A stretch of 64,000 nucleotides of DNA from NCBI GenBank assembly GCA_018402545.1, contig JAGYIL010000001.1, positions 2,542,001 to 2,606,000 of the forward strand, read 5' to 3'. Below are positions 17,091 through 26,186 of the stretch, in pieces (the first letter of the stretch is position 1; each line of letters starts with the position of its first letter). The notes under the pieces are model-generated. The model saw nothing but the letters and a program-made list of their open reading frames with translations, was not told the DNA's origin and did no database searches. A program made the translations under genes and the position numbers. The stretch is from Saccharospirillum sp. (lineage in GTDB: Bacteria > Pseudomonadota > Gammaproteobacteria > Pseudomonadales > Natronospirillaceae).

Positions 17091-17696
17091 CTACATCAGG
17101 ATAAAAACCACACACAGGGCAGTCAGAATGCCCAGCGCCATATTGAACATCCGCAGCCGTGCCGGCTCTTCCAGCCAGCGGCGTAACTGGGAGCCAAGTA
17201 CTGCCCAGACGCAACTGCAGGGGTAGGTCATCAGCGCGAACATAAAGGCCACGGTCAGTGCACTCGGCCAATAAGCATCACCCGGTAAACTGAAAGCGGC
17301 TATGCCGGTAATCGCCATGGCCCAGGCTTTGGGGTTCACGACCTGAAACAGGGCCGCATGCCACCAGCGCATCGGGCGAGCCTCGCCGTCGACCCGGGCC
17401 ATGCCGCCCGCCGTGGCAATGTTCCAGGCAAGCCATAGCAGGTATATCGACCCGATGATTTTCAACGCCCAGTGCAGTTGCGGCACGGCTAGCAAAAGCG
17501 CGCCTATGCCACTGGCGACAACTAAGTTAAGAGTCAGAAACCCGATGCAAATCCCGGTAATGTGCGGCATGGTGCGGCGCAAACCAAAGTTCATGCCGGA
17601 GGCTGTTACCATTATCACATTGGGCCCCGGTGTTATCGTTGTACTGAAGGTATAAACCACGATCGGAAGTAAAAACCCGAGGGTTAAAGCGTCCAT
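17091..17696 (-). CDS. LysE family amino-acid exporter
   Basis: TITPGPNVIMVTASGMNFGLRRTMPHITGI. Confidence 0.88.
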   Translation of the reverse strand: MDALTLGFLLPIVVYTFSTTITPGPNVIMVTASGMNFGLRRTMPHITGICIGFLTLNLVVASGIGALLLAVPQLHWALKIIGSIYLLWLAWNIATAGGMARVDGEARPMRWWHAALFQVVNPKAWAMAITGIAAFSLPGDAYWPSALTVAFMFALMTYPCSCVWAVLGSQLRRWLEEPARLRMFNMALGILTALCVVFILM

Positions 17697-18492: not shown

Positions 18493-18677
18493 CAAGTTTT
18501 CGGAGTTCGTTAGCAAAGGATTAGCACCGGATGCCAGGTAGGGCTATCTAGGGTGGTCCGCAGCAAGGATGCTGCGGTCCAGGCCCCATGGACGGGTTTA
18601 CGCCGACCCTCGATAGCCCTACCTGGTGGCCGGTGCGAGCGACTGGCAACAAAACCAACCGCGAACTCCGAAACTTG
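18493..18677. repeat. Palindromic element family A, copy A3
   Basis: Outer tips CAAGTTTTCGGAGTTCG / CGAACTCCGAAACTTG; arms GCACCGGATGCCAGGTAGGGCTATCTAGGGT / ACCCTCGATAGCCCTACCTGGTGGCCGGTGC; core as A1. Confidence 0.87.
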
Positions 18678-18717
18678 CAACAATGAATCCGTATTTGTGT
18701 TCGACAAAAGCAAACAA

Positions 18718-18749
18718 TTGCAGTGTAATACGACGACAATTCACTGCAA
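18718..18749. promoter_or_regulatory. Inverted repeat TTGCAGTG-N16-CACTGCAA upstream of MocR gene
   Basis: Perfect 8+8 dyad ending 16 bp before the ATG at 18766. Confidence 0.45.
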
Positions 18750-18765
18750 GCAGTTCTTTGTCACC

Positions 18766-20157
18766 ATGACAATCCTAACACTGACCGGTCAAACCGGCCC
18801 CAAATACAAGGCATTGGCCAACAGCATCGAGCGTGCCGTTCACGATGGCGAACTCAAGCCCGGCGACCGTCTGCCAACGCACCGGCAATTGGCCGAGGAA
18901 TTGGGTGTAACTGTTGGCACCGTCACCCGCGCCTATGCCGAGGCAGAGCGTCGCCGTTTGATCGAAGCCCGGGTCGGCAGCGGCACTTTCATTCGCGGTT
19001 TGAACCCCGGCACCGCCAGCTTCAAAGTGACCGACTCCACGGTCGATACCGGCATCGACCTGGGCTTCAGCATTGCTTTGGAGATGGATCAGTCTGAACA
19101 GTTAACCCGAACTCTGGCCACACTGCAGCACTCTGATGTGTTGCCTCACCTGTTGCGCTACCAGTCTGAATTTGGCCTTGCACATCACCGTGAAGCAGGC
19201 CGTCGATGGCTGCTAAAAACAGGCCTGGGCGACTTCAACAGTGACGACCTGCTGGTCACCCTGGGCGGCCAGCACGGGTTCTACGTTGCGCTCAATGCCC
19301 TGCTGCAGCCCGGCGATGGCCTGGCCTGTGAAGGGCTGACCTACCCGGGGCTGGTCGCGGCAGCCACGCAGCAGAACCTGCGACTGATGCCGCTGGCGAT
19401 CGACGACCAGGGTTTGACCCCCGAAGCGCTGGAAAGCCAGTGCCTGCGTCACCCGCCACGTGTACTGTATCTAATGACCCGGATGCAGAACCCAACCGGC
19501 GGTTCGATGTCGCAACAGCGTATTGATGAGCTGGCGCTCATTTGCCGACAGTATCAAATCACCGTTGTTGAAGACGACGTACAGGGTTGTCTGGGCGATC
19601 CGGCCCAGCCCTCCTTCAGCCTGCGCCACCCGGACATCACCGTCACCATCGCCAGCCTGTCCAAGGCGTTGTGCGGTGGCTTGCATGTCGGTTTTATGCG
19701 CGCTCCGGAAGAATGGGTTAATGCCATCGGCGCAGCTTTTCGCGCCACCTGCTGGATGGCCATTCCGCTGACCACCGAAGTTGCCTGCGACTGGCTGAAC
19801 AACGGCTATGCCGATCAATTGCTGGCCCATCAGCAAGCCGAGATCGACTGGCGTCAGAATGCTGTGTGCGAACGGTTACGACAGGCCGGCTTCACCCCGC
19901 GCGGCGGCGGCTTCAACGTCTGGCTGGATTTACCCGCCCCCTGGCGTGCGGTCAATCTGGTAGCGCGCGCTGCCGAGCATCGCATTCAGCTGAAACCGGC
20001 AGAAGTGTTTGCGGCGGGGCAATTCGCTGCCCCCCAGGCGGTACGCATCTGCATCGGTGGCCGACTGAAACGCGATACGCTGCTCAGCGCCATCGACACC
20101 CTGATCGACCTGATCCGGAACCCGGGCAACGCCCAGGATTCACTGACCAACATTTGA
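18766..20157 (+). CDS. MocR-type PLP-dependent aminotransferase-like GntR regulator
   Basis: wHTH LPTHRQLAEELGVTVGTVTRAYAEAERR plus aminotransferase-like domain (ASLSKALCGGLHVGF); ORF 18553 start rejected because it runs through repeat A3. Confidence 0.88.
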   Translation: MTILTLTGQTGPKYKALANSIERAVHDGELKPGDRLPTHRQLAEELGVTVGTVTRAYAEAERRRLIEARVGSGTFIRGLNPGTASFKVTDSTVDTGIDLGFSIALEMDQSEQLTRTLATLQHSDVLPHLLRYQSEFGLAHHREAGRRWLLKTGLGDFNSDDLLVTLGGQHGFYVALNALLQPGDGLACEGLTYPGLVAAATQQNLRLMPLAIDDQGLTPEALESQCLRHPPRVLYLMTRMQNPTGGSMSQQRIDELALICRQYQITVVEDDVQGCLGDPAQPSFSLRHPDITVTIASLSKALCGGLHVGFMRAPEEWVNAIGAAFRATCWMAIPLTTEVACDWLNNGYADQLLAHQQAEIDWRQNAVCERLRQAGFTPRGGGFNVWLDLPAPWRAVNLVARAAEHRIQLKPAEVFAAGQFAAPQAVRICIGGRLKRDTLLSAIDTLIDLIRNPGNAQDSLTNI

Positions 20158-20164
20158 GGCAGCT

Positions 20165-21094
20165 ATGATATCCGCAACGCGCAGCGGCGCTTTTTACGCA
20201 CTGACCGCCTACATTCTGTGGTCAGTAGCCCCCATCTATTTCAAGGTTATGGGCGACGTCGCAGCAGCGGAACTGTTGTCGCACCGCATCATCTGGTCGT
20301 TTCTGTTAACGCTGGGTTTGATATTCCTGTTTCGCAAACGCGATGCGCTGATGACCGCGCTGCGCTCATCACGAACCCGCTGGAATTTGCTCGCCTCGAC
20401 GATACTGATCGGGTTTAACTGGGGGTTGTTCATCTGGGCGGTGCAAAGCAATTACATGCTCAGCGCCAGCCTCGGTTATTACATCAACCCACTGATGAAC
20501 ATTTTGCTCGGCATGATCTTTTTCCGGGACCGGCTCGACCGGGTGCGCACCATCGCCGCTTTGTTGTGTGTCGCCGCTGTTGCCTTCGAGCTGATTCAGT
20601 TCGGTCGCCTGCCCTGGGTTGCCTTGCTGCTGGCCACCAGCTTTGCGCTGTATGGTCTGGTGCGTAAAAAAATCGGCGTCGACAGCTTCACCGGCATGGC
20701 ACTGGAAACCGGTTTACTCCTGCCCGTTGCCGCAGGTTATTTATTGTTGACCACCAGCCCGACCAGCAATCTGATCGAAAACACCGGGTCAATAAACCTG
20801 CTGCTGTTTGCCGCTGGCCCGGTCACCATGGTGCCATTAATGTGCTTTGCGGCAGCGGCCAATCGCATCAGTCTGACCGCACTCGGTTTCTTTCAATACA
20901 TTGCCCCGAGCGGCATGTTTCTGCTGGCGGTGTTTGTTTATGGAGAAACCCTGAGCCCCGGCAAGCTGGTGACCTTTGGCCTGATCTGGGCGGCTTTGTT
21001 GCTGTTAACGCTCGATTCGTTGCGCACACTGGGCCGCAATCAGTCTGCCAAGCGTGCGCTCAAAGCATCCAACGCTGCCACCAGTCCCAAATAA
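20165..21094 (+). CDS. rarD: EamA/RarD family transporter
   Basis: YILWSVAPIYFKVMGDVAAAELLSHRIIWSF. Confidence 0.85.
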   Translation: MISATRSGAFYALTAYILWSVAPIYFKVMGDVAAAELLSHRIIWSFLLTLGLIFLFRKRDALMTALRSSRTRWNLLASTILIGFNWGLFIWAVQSNYMLSASLGYYINPLMNILLGMIFFRDRLDRVRTIAALLCVAAVAFELIQFGRLPWVALLLATSFALYGLVRKKIGVDSFTGMALETGLLLPVAAGYLLLTTSPTSNLIENTGSINLLLFAAGPVTMVPLMCFAAAANRISLTALGFFQYIAPSGMFLLAVFVYGETLSPGKLVTFGLIWAALLLLTLDSLRTLGRNQSAKRALKASNAATSPK

Positions 21095-21686
21095 ACAGCA
21101 GAGACAAGGCAATAAAAATCACCCCGGCGCCCCGGTCGATCCAGTGGCGCCGGTTTAAAAACCGGCGCTGCAATACCGGTTGCGACAACACCCAACCAAC
21201 CAGACCAAACCACAGACTGGTCACCACAAACACATAACCGACAAGGGCAGACTGCATCCACCCGTTCAGGCCCTCCACCAACTGCAGCAGAATGGCCGAG
21301 AAAAATAGCAGCGCTTTCGGGTTCAGCACGTTGGTCAGAAACCCCTGCCAGAAATCCCCCCGGTCGCTGACCGTGGCGGAACTGTCGAGCGGTTGCCCCG
21401 GCGGTGTCGGTTGCGCACTCAACCCACCCCAGCCGAGATACAGCAGATACCCTATCCCCAGCCAGGGCAATGTCATCGCCAGCCAGTGGCTCGACTGCAC
21501 CAGGGCCGACACACCCAACACAGCAACCAACGTATGAAGGGTAACCCCCAAACCGATGCCCAGGGCATTCAGCGTGCTGGCACGCTTTCCCCGAGTAAGC
21601 GCCGATTTAACCACCAGCGCAAAATCCGGTCCCGGGCTGATTACTGCGGCGGTATACACCAGTACGAACGGCCACCAGGCGGGCAT
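21060..21686 (-). CDS. LysE family exporter
   Basis: TAAVISPGPDFALVVKSALTRGKRAS; start set at MPAWWPF. Confidence 0.83.
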   Translation of the reverse strand: MPAWWPFVLVYTAAVISPGPDFALVVKSALTRGKRASTLNALGIGLGVTLHTLVAVLGVSALVQSSHWLAMTLPWLGIGYLLYLGWGGLSAQPTPPGQPLDSSATVSDRGDFWQGFLTNVLNPKALLFFSAILLQLVEGLNGWMQSALVGYVFVVTSLWFGLVGWVLSQPVLQRRFLNRRHWIDRGAGVIFIALSLLFIWDWWQRWML

Positions 21687-21824
21687 AAAAATCTCCAACA
21701 CAACGAGTAAACAACGTTCGAAGACTACCAGAAGCCACAACAGAATGGCGAGCGCGGCCGGGTATTCGCCAAACTGGGAGCTTGCCCTTTATACTGCCGA
21801 TACGACCTTGCTGAGACTCGTGCC

Positions 21825-22895
21825 ATGCATACCCGCCCGATCCAGGACCGCATCGACTGGCTGCTCGACCTGAGCCGCACCCACTCGGAACGATTTTGCG
21901 ACCCGGAGAATCACCTGGCGCGACAACGTTACCAGGCTGAACACAGCACTGAGATCATCGCTCTGAAGTGCATGGACGGACGCATTCACTTGCCCCACGC
22001 CACCCAGACCCCGCTGGGCATTATTCGCCCATTTCGAAACCTCGGTGGCATATTCGACCTTGGCTGGCCTTATTTGGGTGACCTTCTGGCGGATATGGTC
22101 AGTGACTCGATCGGTCAGGGCCGACGCGTACTGATGATCATCACCTATCACTTTTCCAGAGGCGATACCGCGCGTGGCTGTGCGGGGTTTAATTGTGATG
22201 ACAAAGCGGCACTGGCGCATGCGCAAGGCATTAAAGCGCAAGTCGAGGCGATTTTCGGGGCTGGCCATCAAAGCGTTTACCCACTGGTCTGTGGCTTTGA
22301 GACCGATGAAGATGCCCTTATCCTGCACAACGAGGCCGGTACCCGACTCGACCTCTCAACCCTGGCGTCTGACCAAAACCCGGATTTGTCCGCCCGCCTG
22401 GAAGCCATGTTCACCGATATGCCCGGCCAGGTGCGGCACGACCTGATGCCCCTATTGGAAGGCAACATTCGCCATATCGCCGAGATTCGCAGCAGCAACC
22501 GTGAACTGGCTGTTGAGCACCGGGAATGGACCCTGTGCGTGGGTCGCGGCTTTGATTTTCTGCACGTTCCCAACATCGCGCTGATCATCGGCCCTTTCAG
22601 CCCGGATTTATCGCACCCCATTCAAAAAGCGGCGGGCATTATTCAGGGCAATATGGATAAGGGCCGCATCCCCGATGACGGCTTTCTGCTACTCTCGTCG
22701 GCCCCCTATCAGGAGCCCGGCCCCGATCGGGCACGAGCTGAAATGAAAGCGCGCTTTATGGCCGACTTTACCGCCACAGTGATTCGTAATTGCCAGCCAC
22801 AGTTGGCAGAAAAAATGATCAGCCGTACCGCCATTCTGAACTGGCCAACCCGACGGCTCGAAGTATTTGAATCAGCCGTTGCTGGCTCAGTCTAA
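21825..22895 (+). CDS. CsoSCA-like carbonic anhydrase family protein
   Basis: CMDGR (CxDxR) and ITYHFSRGDTARGCAGF...FETDEDALILHNEAG resemble the catalytic half of carboxysomal carbonic anhydrase CsoSCA. Confidence 0.68.
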   Translation: MHTRPIQDRIDWLLDLSRTHSERFCDPENHLARQRYQAEHSTEIIALKCMDGRIHLPHATQTPLGIIRPFRNLGGIFDLGWPYLGDLLADMVSDSIGQGRRVLMIITYHFSRGDTARGCAGFNCDDKAALAHAQGIKAQVEAIFGAGHQSVYPLVCGFETDEDALILHNEAGTRLDLSTLASDQNPDLSARLEAMFTDMPGQVRHDLMPLLEGNIRHIAEIRSSNRELAVEHREWTLCVGRGFDFLHVPNIALIIGPFSPDLSHPIQKAAGIIQGNMDKGRIPDDGFLLLSSAPYQEPGPDRARAEMKARFMADFTATVIRNCQPQLAEKMISRTAILNWPTRRLEVFESAVAGSV

Positions 22896-22902
22896 GCTCA
22901 GG

Positions 22903-24999
22903 TTACTGCGTATCACGGGCCAGCATGCTGGCAAAATCCGCTGCCGGCATCGGGTGACCCAGGAAATAACCCTGGCCAAAATTGCACTGCAACCGGGTCA
23001 GTGTTTGTTGTTGCGCCCGTGTTTCCAGCCCTTCGGCAACACTCTGTATTCCCAGGCTGGACGCCAGTTGAATGATACTAGTCACTATGTCCATCGCACT
23101 GGGATGTTCGTCAATGCCACTGATAAAGGAGCGGTCAATTTTCAACTGATCGACCGGAAAACGATGCAGGTAAGACAACGAGGAATAGCCTGTTCCAAAA
23201 TCATCCAGTGACAACTGCACGCCCAGCCGTTTGAGCTGATGCATGATGGCAATAATGCTGTCGGAATGATGCAGCAAGACCGTCTCGGTAAACTCCAGCA
23301 ACAACTGGTTGGCCACCAGGCCCGAGGTGGCCAGAGCCGTTTTTACCGATTGCAGTACATTGCCTCGGTAGAACTGGTCTGCCGCAAGGTTCACCGAAAC
23401 CCGACACAGCAACCCCTGCTGTTGCCAGTACGCCGCTTCAGCGCAGGCCGTTTGCAACACCCAGTGTCCAACGTCGACCATCAGCCCATGCTCTTCGAGC
23501 AGGTACATGAACTCGCCGGGCGCCAGTACGCCACGGTCGGGATGGTTCCAGCGCAGCAAGGCTTCGGCACCGGTCAGGCGGTTGTCTGATAGGCGATAAA
23601 GGGGCTGATAATACAATTCAAATTCATCGTTCCGAATGGCATGCTGCAACTGCGATAACAACACCAGGTGTTCATGGGCTGCCTCATTCAGTTCACGGGT
23701 AAAATAACAATACTGACCCCGCCCGCTCTTTTTCGCCGAGTACATGGCGGTATCAGAGGTACGCAACAAATCGTGTGCGCTGTCACCGTCTTCCGGGTAG
23801 AGGCTTATGCCGATGCTTGCGCCGAGTTTGAGCGGTTGATTCCTGACGAAAAACGGGGCTTCCAGCTCGTGCATAACCTTGGCAGCCACCGTTGAAGCGG
23901 TTGTGTCAAAACCGATATCCGGCAGGCAGATGACAAACTCGTCGCCACCCAGGCGGGCTATGGTATCGCTGCTGCGAACACAGCGCTGAAGCCGCCCGGC
24001 TACCTCCTTGAGCAACACATCACCGGTCTGATGACCCAGGGAGTCGTTCACGTGTTTGAACCGGTCGAGGTCAATCATCAACACCGCGGTGCGTGACTGA
24101 CGGCGATTTGCCGATTCGATGGCTCCGTCAATTCGGTCCTGCAACAGCGACCGGTTGGGCAAACCGGTCAGTTCATCGTGATGCGCCATGTACTGAATCC
24201 GGGCCTCGGCCCGGGCCCGATCAATCGCAATGCCGGCCAGATGAACGGCCGACGCTATCAGTGCCCGCTGTTGTTCACTGGGGCCTCGCACTTGCCGGTA
24301 ATAAATAGCGAATGATCCCAACACCTGATTTGACTGGGTAGTGATGGGGGTCGACCAGCACGCCTTAAGCCCTACGCCAAGCGCAAGCTCACGATAGTCA
24401 TCCCAGAGCGGGTCGGTCGCGATGTCAGTGACCTCAATGGTCTGGTTCAAGTACATGGCAGTACCACAGGAACCCGCCCTGGGCCCAATGTCGACACCAA
24501 TCAGCGCACGGCTGTAATCTTCCGGCAAGCTCGGAGCGATACACTGGCCAATGGCTTTGCCGCTGTCGTCGAGCAGCAGGATCGACGCCAGCCCAACATG
24601 CCCCTGGGCTTCAACCCAGTGCGCCAATTGACGCAAAATGGATTCCAGAGGCGCGTGGGCCGCAATGAGCTCGAGAATGTCATACTGACCGGTGCGCATC
24701 GCTTCTGCCCGCTTGCGCTGATCGATTTCCGCTTTCAAATCCCGAGTCAGCCGGTAGAGATTTTCAGTAATGTGTTCGTTGTATTCCAGCGCTCGCGCCA
24801 GTTCCCGGGTGCGCTGCTGCACCGTTGCTTCCAGTGTCAGCGCCGTCTGAAATAGCCCGAAATCAGACCCCTGTTGCGACATGCTGCGTTCGGACCGGTC
24901 CATAAGGGCGTCAATGATTTTGTTGAGCCGGCGAATCTCGGCTTCCGGCCCGGGCGAACCGGCCTCTGCCGCAAGGCCTGCCGGCGACCTGGACTTCAT
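22903..24999 (-). CDS. GAF-GGDEF-EAL cyclic-di-GMP protein
   Basis: RLGGDEFVICLPD, GAEALLRWNHP, DDFGTGYSSLSYLHRFPVDQLKIDRSF all intact. Confidence 0.93.
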   Translation of the reverse strand: MKSRSPAGLAAEAGSPGPEAEIRRLNKIIDALMDRSERSMSQQGSDFGLFQTALTLEATVQQRTRELARALEYNEHITENLYRLTRDLKAEIDQRKRAEAMRTGQYDILELIAAHAPLESILRQLAHWVEAQGHVGLASILLLDDSGKAIGQCIAPSLPEDYSRALIGVDIGPRAGSCGTAMYLNQTIEVTDIATDPLWDDYRELALGVGLKACWSTPITTQSNQVLGSFAIYYRQVRGPSEQQRALIASAVHLAGIAIDRARAEARIQYMAHHDELTGLPNRSLLQDRIDGAIESANRRQSRTAVLMIDLDRFKHVNDSLGHQTGDVLLKEVAGRLQRCVRSSDTIARLGGDEFVICLPDIGFDTTASTVAAKVMHELEAPFFVRNQPLKLGASIGISLYPEDGDSAHDLLRTSDTAMYSAKKSGRGQYCYFTRELNEAAHEHLVLLSQLQHAIRNDEFELYYQPLYRLSDNRLTGAEALLRWNHPDRGVLAPGEFMYLLEEHGLMVDVGHWVLQTACAEAAYWQQQGLLCRVSVNLAADQFYRGNVLQSVKTALATSGLVANQLLLEFTETVLLHHSDSIIAIMHQLKRLGVQLSLDDFGTGYSSLSYLHRFPVDQLKIDRSFISGIDEHPSAMDIVTSIIQLASSLGIQSVAEGLETRAQQQTLTRLQCNFGQGYFLGHPMPAADFASMLARDTQ

Positions 25000-26186
25000 G
25001 GTTGCACCCCCTCCGGATACCCGATCGCCAGGCCGGTAAAGGTCTGGTTTACGTGCACACCGCCGAACTGCTCTCCATAGGAATTAAAGCCAAGGGTATT
25101 GCAGGCCTGCGTCAGCGCACCCGCCCGGGCAGTATCGTCGTTTTGCCCCATCTCGAGCTTGCGCAGCACACAATCAAACGCCAGCAACACTTGCGGTGAA
25201 CCCAGGGTCTGTCGAACAGATTCCAGAGAAAGCCGCAGGTTTTCAATCAGATCCACGCCCCGGGCAACCCGGAACACCAGGCCGGCTTCAATGGCGCAGT
25301 AGAAAGTCAGGCTGCCATCCGGGTTGGCCTGGCGAATCGACCGTACGTATTCCTTGCCCTCTATCATCACCACAACCGGTGAATCGGCAAACCGCATCAG
25401 ATTCAAATCATCAACATCAACACCGGTCAGGCGTGCGTATTCGGCAGCAGCCGGCAATCCGTTGATTTCAGTGACCAGGCGCCGCTCCGGATCTGCAGCC
25501 GTAATCACCAGACGCTGATCGGTCGCAACAAAGTGCTGGGTCTTCACCGGCGCAATGGAACACCGGGTCGACATCAGCAACATCAGAGCGCTGTTGGTGT
25601 GAAACTGGCCCTGATGAAACACCCAGGTATTCTCGAACATCAGGTCATCGCCTGTCGACCCACCCACAATGGGAATGGTGGGCAGGCTGTTAAACAGCGT
25701 TCGGGTTACAGCGTCTTCGCGCTGGGAGACGCCATCGATCAGTAACATGGCAAAGGTATTGGGTAACTCGCCTTTTTTATTCTCATGGCGCAGCACCAGA
25801 CTGTGAGCAAAGGTTTGCAAGCGGCTGACTTCCGCTGACTTCAGACTGTCGAGCCGCGCCACAGACGCCACAAAATGATCGGCCGGAAAGCTGGCCCCGC
25901 TGATACTGTGATCACAATACCCCTCAGGCCCTATTTCTCCGGCGGTGGTGCAGCCGATAACGGGTGTCTCGCCAAACAGCTGATTAATCGTATTGGCCAG
26001 ACTCGTCAGGTCATACCGGCTCGAACAAAAAAAGACCACCAGACTGGTGTCAGGCTGACTGATTTGCTGATGCAAGTCCCGAACGGCCGCCTCGGGATCG
26101 GACAGAGTAGATTGGCCAAGCTTCACACAACGCGTCAATTGAAACCCTCCGATCACTGGCAGACGTCCAACCCGGACGACAAACAA
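24996..26186 (-). CDS. FIST domain protein (NosP-like)
   Basis: VVFFCSSRYDLTSLANTINQLFGETPVIGCTTAGEIGPEGY; ATGA overlap with GGDEF gene; start uncertain. Confidence 0.8.
   Translation of the reverse strand: MFVVRVGRLPVIGGFQLTRCVKLGQSTLSDPEAAVRDLHQQISQPDTSLVVFFCSSRYDLTSLANTINQLFGETPVIGCTTAGEIGPEGYCDHSISGASFPADHFVASVARLDSLKSAEVSRLQTFAHSLVLRHENKKGELPNTFAMLLIDGVSQREDAVTRTLFNSLPTIPIVGGSTGDDLMFENTWVFHQGQFHTNSALMLLMSTRCSIAPVKTQHFVATDQRLVITAADPERRLVTEINGLPAAAEYARLTGVDVDDLNLMRFADSPVVVMIEGKEYVRSIRQANPDGSLTFYCAIEAGLVFRVARGVDLIENLRLSLESVRQTLGSPQVLLAFDCVLRKLEMGQNDDTARAGALTQACNTLGFNSYGEQFGGVHVNQTFTGLAIGYPEGVQP

Follow-up and report, generated by a model that had tools for sequence, protein, structure and literature searches.

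The gene at positions 21825-22895 (+) of the window (the whole stretch of Saccharospirillum sp. DNA analyzed, 64,000 nucleotides) probably encodes a compact, free-standing CsoSCA2, i.e., a deeply divergent β-type zinc carbonic anhydrase (CA) of the cytosol, as judged from its sequence and modelled structure. The open reading frame (ORF) is intact, with an ATG start and 356 codons followed by a stop codon, and it was annotated as csoSCA2-like on the basis of the ORF itself and of profile, PDB and fold matches. CsoSCA2 proteins, known from autotrophs as well as heterotrophs, are CsoSCA homologues whose genes lie outside carboxysome loci; they have complete active sites and were described in 2022 as yet unstudied (PMC9164163). 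The gene is a further member of this family, and the novelty implied by the original prediction was lost with that earlier publication. No assay of any CsoSCA2 was found in the literature searched.

Assignment to the CsoSCA family

The motifs from which a likeness to CsoSCA had been proposed (CMDGR, FGAGHQSV, FETDEDALILH and others) were all present in the ORF, and this likeness was confirmed by a profile match, by PDB matches to CsoSCA and by an intact active site. The Pfam model CsoSCA_cat (PF20686) matched residues 91-169 of the protein with 30.3 bits (E 3.7e-7), above its gathering score of 21.5, and 31 of the 32 aligned family members matched the same model. The original prediction had named PF08936 for the profile search, and with this model, the C-terminal domain of CsoSCA, no match was obtained in the protein or in its own genome, so that only PF20686 gave the expected hit. 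The N-terminal domain PF20687 (CsoSCA_N) was not matched in the protein either. Unlike this protein, the Ectothiorhodospira carboxysomal CsoSCA matched both PF20687 and PF08936; overall identity between the two was about 24%. The protein scored 39 bits with the NCBIfam carboxysomal equivalog TIGR02701, far under the cut-off of 241, and had no Pfam match to the canonical β-CA family PF00484. A PF20686 search of its own genome gave no match, although the protein itself matches this model; the miss was due to the limited sensitivity of that search, since the gene itself is present.

When the protein was used as a single sequence to search the PDB, CsoSCA chains were retrieved at E 3.8e-5. With the family profile, CsoSCA was found at E 2.9e-7 and the next entry, carbonic anhydrase 3las, followed at E 0.077; only CsoSCA structures were convincing matches of this profile.

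Predicted structure

An AlphaFold2 model of the protein, for which 32 family members served as input, had a mean pLDDT of 90.1 and a pTM of 0.88 and consisted of two β-CA-like halves in succession. The best PDB fold matches were the CsoSCA structures 2FGY, 9G4T and 8THM (E 1.5e-15 to 1.7e-14, query TM 0.68-0.70). Among these, 2FGY was the top match (E 1.5e-15). The CsoSCA structures were followed by the tandem-domain β-CA 1DDZ and then by CcaA (5SWC, E 4e-4).

Residues 1-40 (21825-21944, +) are predicted to form a short N-terminal segment that replaces CsoSCA_N, as indicated by the AlphaFold secondary structure, with helices at 6-25 and 27-39 and the first strand at 43, and by the missing CsoSCA_N match. 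A hydrophobic N-terminal signal was not visible in the protein sequence. The catalytic β-CA-fold domain would span about residues 41-176 (21945-22352, +), considering the position of the CsoSCA_cat match and the modelled strands and helices. A second, apparently non-catalytic β-CA-like domain was delimited from the model and the fold match at about residues 188-348 (22386-22868, +), where PF08936 was not matched. According to the model, the protein is composed of an active and a defunct domain, as described for CsoSCA2 (PMC9164163). The same description includes a more truncated variant, in which the N-terminus consists of 40 residues with two helices and the loops are shortened. The protein studied here resembles this variant in being stand-alone and in having a complete active site, as well as in its predicted active and defunct domains, its predicted two-helix N-terminus of about 40 residues and its predicted shorter loops.

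Active site

The active-site residues of CsoSCA are C173, D175, R177, H242, C253, H397 and E399 (PMC9164163, Table 2), of which C173, H242 and C253 are the zinc ligands (PMC12646314). Residues were mapped by alignment with two Ectothiorhodospira carboxysomal CsoSCA, and the Halothiobacillus numbering was transferred through the PDB alignment. Equivalents of all seven residues were found (C49, D51, R53, H109, C119, H232 and E234), and they were invariant among the window protein, 78 relatives and the two carboxysomal CsoSCA. According to the alignment and the published residues (PMC9164163, PMC12646314), the stretch C49-M-D51-G-R53 (21969-21983, +) would provide a zinc ligand and the Asp-Arg dyad (C173, D175 and R177 in HnCsoSCA), and H109 (22149-22151, +) and C119 (22179-22181, +) are the other two predicted zinc ligands (H242 and C253, respectively). 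H232-R-E234 (22518-22526, +), aligned with H397 and E399 of HnCsoSCA, represent putative active-site residues located past the catalytic domain (PMC9164163). Strong family-specific conservation was also observed outside the CA site, at K48, at M50 and in the RN-GG and GPxSP stretches.

The protein thus shares with HnCsoSCA (CsoS3 of Halothiobacillus neapolitanus, 2FGY) the catalytic domain, the zinc-ligand residues, the Asp-Arg dyad, the equivalents of H397 and E399 and the tandem-domain fold, whereas it differs from carboxysomal CsoSCA in having shorter loops and in having no CsoSCA_N, PF08936 match or carboxysome. The fold and the type of zinc site are also those of canonical β-CAs (PF00484; CcaA, E. 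coli Can). However, the protein has no PF00484 match and a weaker fold match to these enzymes, which are mostly single-domain.

Genomic setting

The csoSCA2-like gene stands alone between a divergent gene for a LysE-family exporter upstream (21060-21740, -) and a convergent GAF-GGDEF-EAL gene downstream (22903-24999, -), beyond which a FIST gene is located (24996-26186, -). The LysE exporter and signalling genes reported as neighbours in the original prediction were thus found. The FIST sensor gene and the GAF-GGDEF-EAL gene overlap by 4 bases (22903-26186, -) and likely form one c-di-GMP signalling operon. In the gap between the LysE and csoSCA2-like genes, a consensus scan gave a weak sigma-70-like promoter candidate (21766-21795, +); such candidates numbered three in the region against 0.7 expected.

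Two LysE/RhtB-like exporters (17091-17696, - and 21060-21740, -) lie on either side of an EamA-family transporter (20165-21094) and an aminotransferase-like regulator of the GntR/MocR type, which has an uncertain start (18553-20157). The first of these exporters and the regulator were identified from sequence only.

The GC content of the csoSCA2-like gene was 57.5%, near that of its neighbours (56-58%), and this test for foreign composition gave no signal of recent import. The gene was single-copy in the host genome (4.25 Mb in 11 contigs, rated 95% complete), which also encodes one ordinary β-CA (Pro_CA) elsewhere, at position 2490184 of contig C1. The genome was checked for a cso operon: neither a RuBisCO large subunit nor a BMC shell protein was matched in the host assembly, while the positive controls were detected. 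The RuBisCO and shell genes that accompany carboxysomal CsoSCA thus appear to be absent from this genome, although, with 11 contigs and 95% completeness, there is a small chance that such a locus was missed. The neighbours and the genome searches place the gene outside a carboxysome locus, as is characteristic of CsoSCA2, and together with the profile match, active site and fold these searches upheld the proposal of a free-standing CsoSCA-type enzyme without a carboxysome.

Distribution and evolution of the relatives

A scan of one genome per species detected relatives in 131 stretches; the best 80 of these were used. The 80 stretches came from Halomonadaceae, Marinobacter, Nitrincola and Ectothiorhodospira, from bacteria related to Zoogloea and Dechloromonas, from deltaproteobacterial lineages and from Falkow-, Magasanik- and Moranbacteria. 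Identity of the compared relatives to the window protein was 57-82%, and proteobacterial and candidate-phylum members were 57-62% identical. Gamma- and betaproteobacteria as well as Falkow-, Magasanik- and Moranbacteria harbour both these relatives and published CsoSCA2, whereas Saccharospirillum, Halomonas and Marinobacter, represented here, are not named in the main text of PMC9164163. A profile search of 399 genomes revealed one tight class of relatives and no intermediate class. The gene probably belongs to the published CsoSCA2 clade, judging from the description, the phyla and the missing intermediate class.

The presence of the gene was patchy: it was found in 4 of the 7 genomes in the genus, 5 of the 23 in the family, 12 of the 196 in the order and 12 of the 399 in the phylum. 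The count for the order includes a 37% weak match (L093) that was taken as a chance one, considering the Trk-type transporter ORF there. ORFs conserved near the gene in at least three genera across the 80 loci were mostly the gene itself and its own antisense frames, and none was widespread. There were two exceptions: an ABC-type ATP-binding ORF was present in 4 loci, where its position varied, and a ThiI-like ORF recurred in 6 loci belonging to Halomonadaceae, Nitrincola and an Oceanospirillales bin. Such a patchy and non-syntenic occurrence is consistent with a self-sufficient enzyme that was spread horizontally and lost.

In Saccharospirillum impatiens, the neighbourhood was syntenic with the window. 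Comparison of the two csoSCA2-like genes gave pN 0.114 and pS 0.675; therefore, the gene is under purifying selection. The encoded proteins were 82% identical and those of the neighbours 87-96%, which indicates faster change of the csoSCA2-like protein.

In the tree, a very long branch lay between the csoSCA2-type clade and carboxysomal CsoSCA. The tree was rooted only on CsoSCA and no direction of descent can be read from it; the base of the clade is poorly placed. L110 was left out, and the placements of L106 and L108 were disregarded as artefacts of a wrong reading frame.

In eight genomes (L003, L026, L029, L036, L046, L061, L072 and L078), csoSCA2 was accompanied by a RuBisCO or RuBisCO-like large subunit. 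PF08936 was not matched in any of these eight, i.e., no carboxysomal CsoSCA was detectable in them.

Ectothiorhodospira loci

Both csoSCA and csoSCA2 are reported in members of Ectothiorhodospira, and PMC9164163 says no more on this point. In E. lacustris (L045:986-9050), we found cbbS, csoS2, csoSCA, two small genes, BMC-type shell genes, a Pterin_4a-domain gene and a LysR regulator; the first of the two small genes matched EutN_CcmL. A gene of the csoSCA2 type was located about 110 bases past the LysR regulator on the same strand. In E. shaposhnikovii (L034:640-9050 and L037:607-9050), csoSCA and the csoSCA2-type gene shared a contig and were arranged in the same way. Thus, in two Ectothiorhodospira species, the free-standing and carboxysomal types of CsoSCA gene adjoin, the csoSCA2 type being downstream of the cso operon and LysR.

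A third CsoSCA-like paralogue of about 490 amino acids was also present in the same Ectothiorhodospira genomes (L097:403-1878, +; L098:400-1878, +; L099:1471-2934, -), on a contig other than that of the cso operon and with arginine at the H397 equivalent. In the copy tested (L099), the N-terminal, catalytic and C-terminal CsoSCA Pfam domains were all matched.

Proposed function and alternatives

Because the active site is unchanged, an ordinary carbonic anhydrase is the default reading. In β-CAs, zinc-held water, activated with the help of an Asp-Arg dyad, attacks CO2. In the protein studied here, the first domain would hold the catalytic zinc by C49, H109 and C119, the D51-R53 dyad would orient and help to activate the zinc-bound water, and the resulting zinc hydroxide would attack CO2 to give bicarbonate in a reversible reaction. 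The second domain, probably a degenerate copy, would contribute H232 and E234 and structural support but no second active site. Since the protein has no RuBisCO-binding N-terminus and no shell partner, it is most likely cytosolic, and it would supplement the ordinary β-CA as an additional carbonic anhydrase. For example, it may retain CO2 from respiration as bicarbonate, for use by carboxylases, and contribute to pH balance.

With regard to origin, CsoSCA2 could be the ancestral form that was recruited as carboxysomal CsoSCA, which is compatible with the function proposed above. The argument for this in PMC9164163 is that CsoSCA2 spans a wider range of phyla, and we regard such an origin as possible though doubtful: with 57-62% identity between phyla, the clade is shallow, and it is also patchy, so its spread looks recent, and a CsoSCA-rooted tree cannot show direction. 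Our results are neutral with regard to the suggestion in PMC9164163 that CsoSCA arose from CsoSCA2.

It is also conceivable, though rather improbable, that a mobile, self-sufficient CsoSCA2 repeatedly joined autotroph and heterotroph genomes and in Ectothiorhodospira was captured beside the cso operon and its LysR regulator as a second, extra-carboxysomal CA of the CO2-concentrating system, or that the substrate of CsoSCA2 is not CO2.

COS and CS2 hydrolases are known from other β-CA-fold lineages, and the fold would be compatible with a substrate switch to such a reaction or to the hydrolysis of another small molecule; the conservation of K48, M50, RN-GG and GPxSP could mark another partner or substrate. 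Nevertheless, a substrate-switched enzyme appears quite unlikely, considering that all published CsoSCA active-site residues are retained and that no neighbour gene recurs widely. Repurposing, raised in the original prediction, gained no positive evidence; the unchanged active site speaks against it, while it is still compatible with another substrate.

Despite the homology to csoSCA and the csoSCA2-type gene after the cso operon in Ectothiorhodospira, it is very improbable that the gene is left over from an alpha-carboxysome operon that the host lineage has lost, given the very long branch separating the clade from carboxysomal CsoSCA, the occurrence of both types side by side in Ectothiorhodospira, the absence of any cso gene recurring next to other relatives and the absence of RuBisCO or shell traces in the host genome.

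Stand-alone relatives of CsoSCA bear on the origin and requirements of the carboxysomal carbonic anhydrase, a general point that was already made in 2022. The compact, shell-free form found here in a heterotroph genome offers a practical protein for studying activity, oligomeric state and the role of the second domain.
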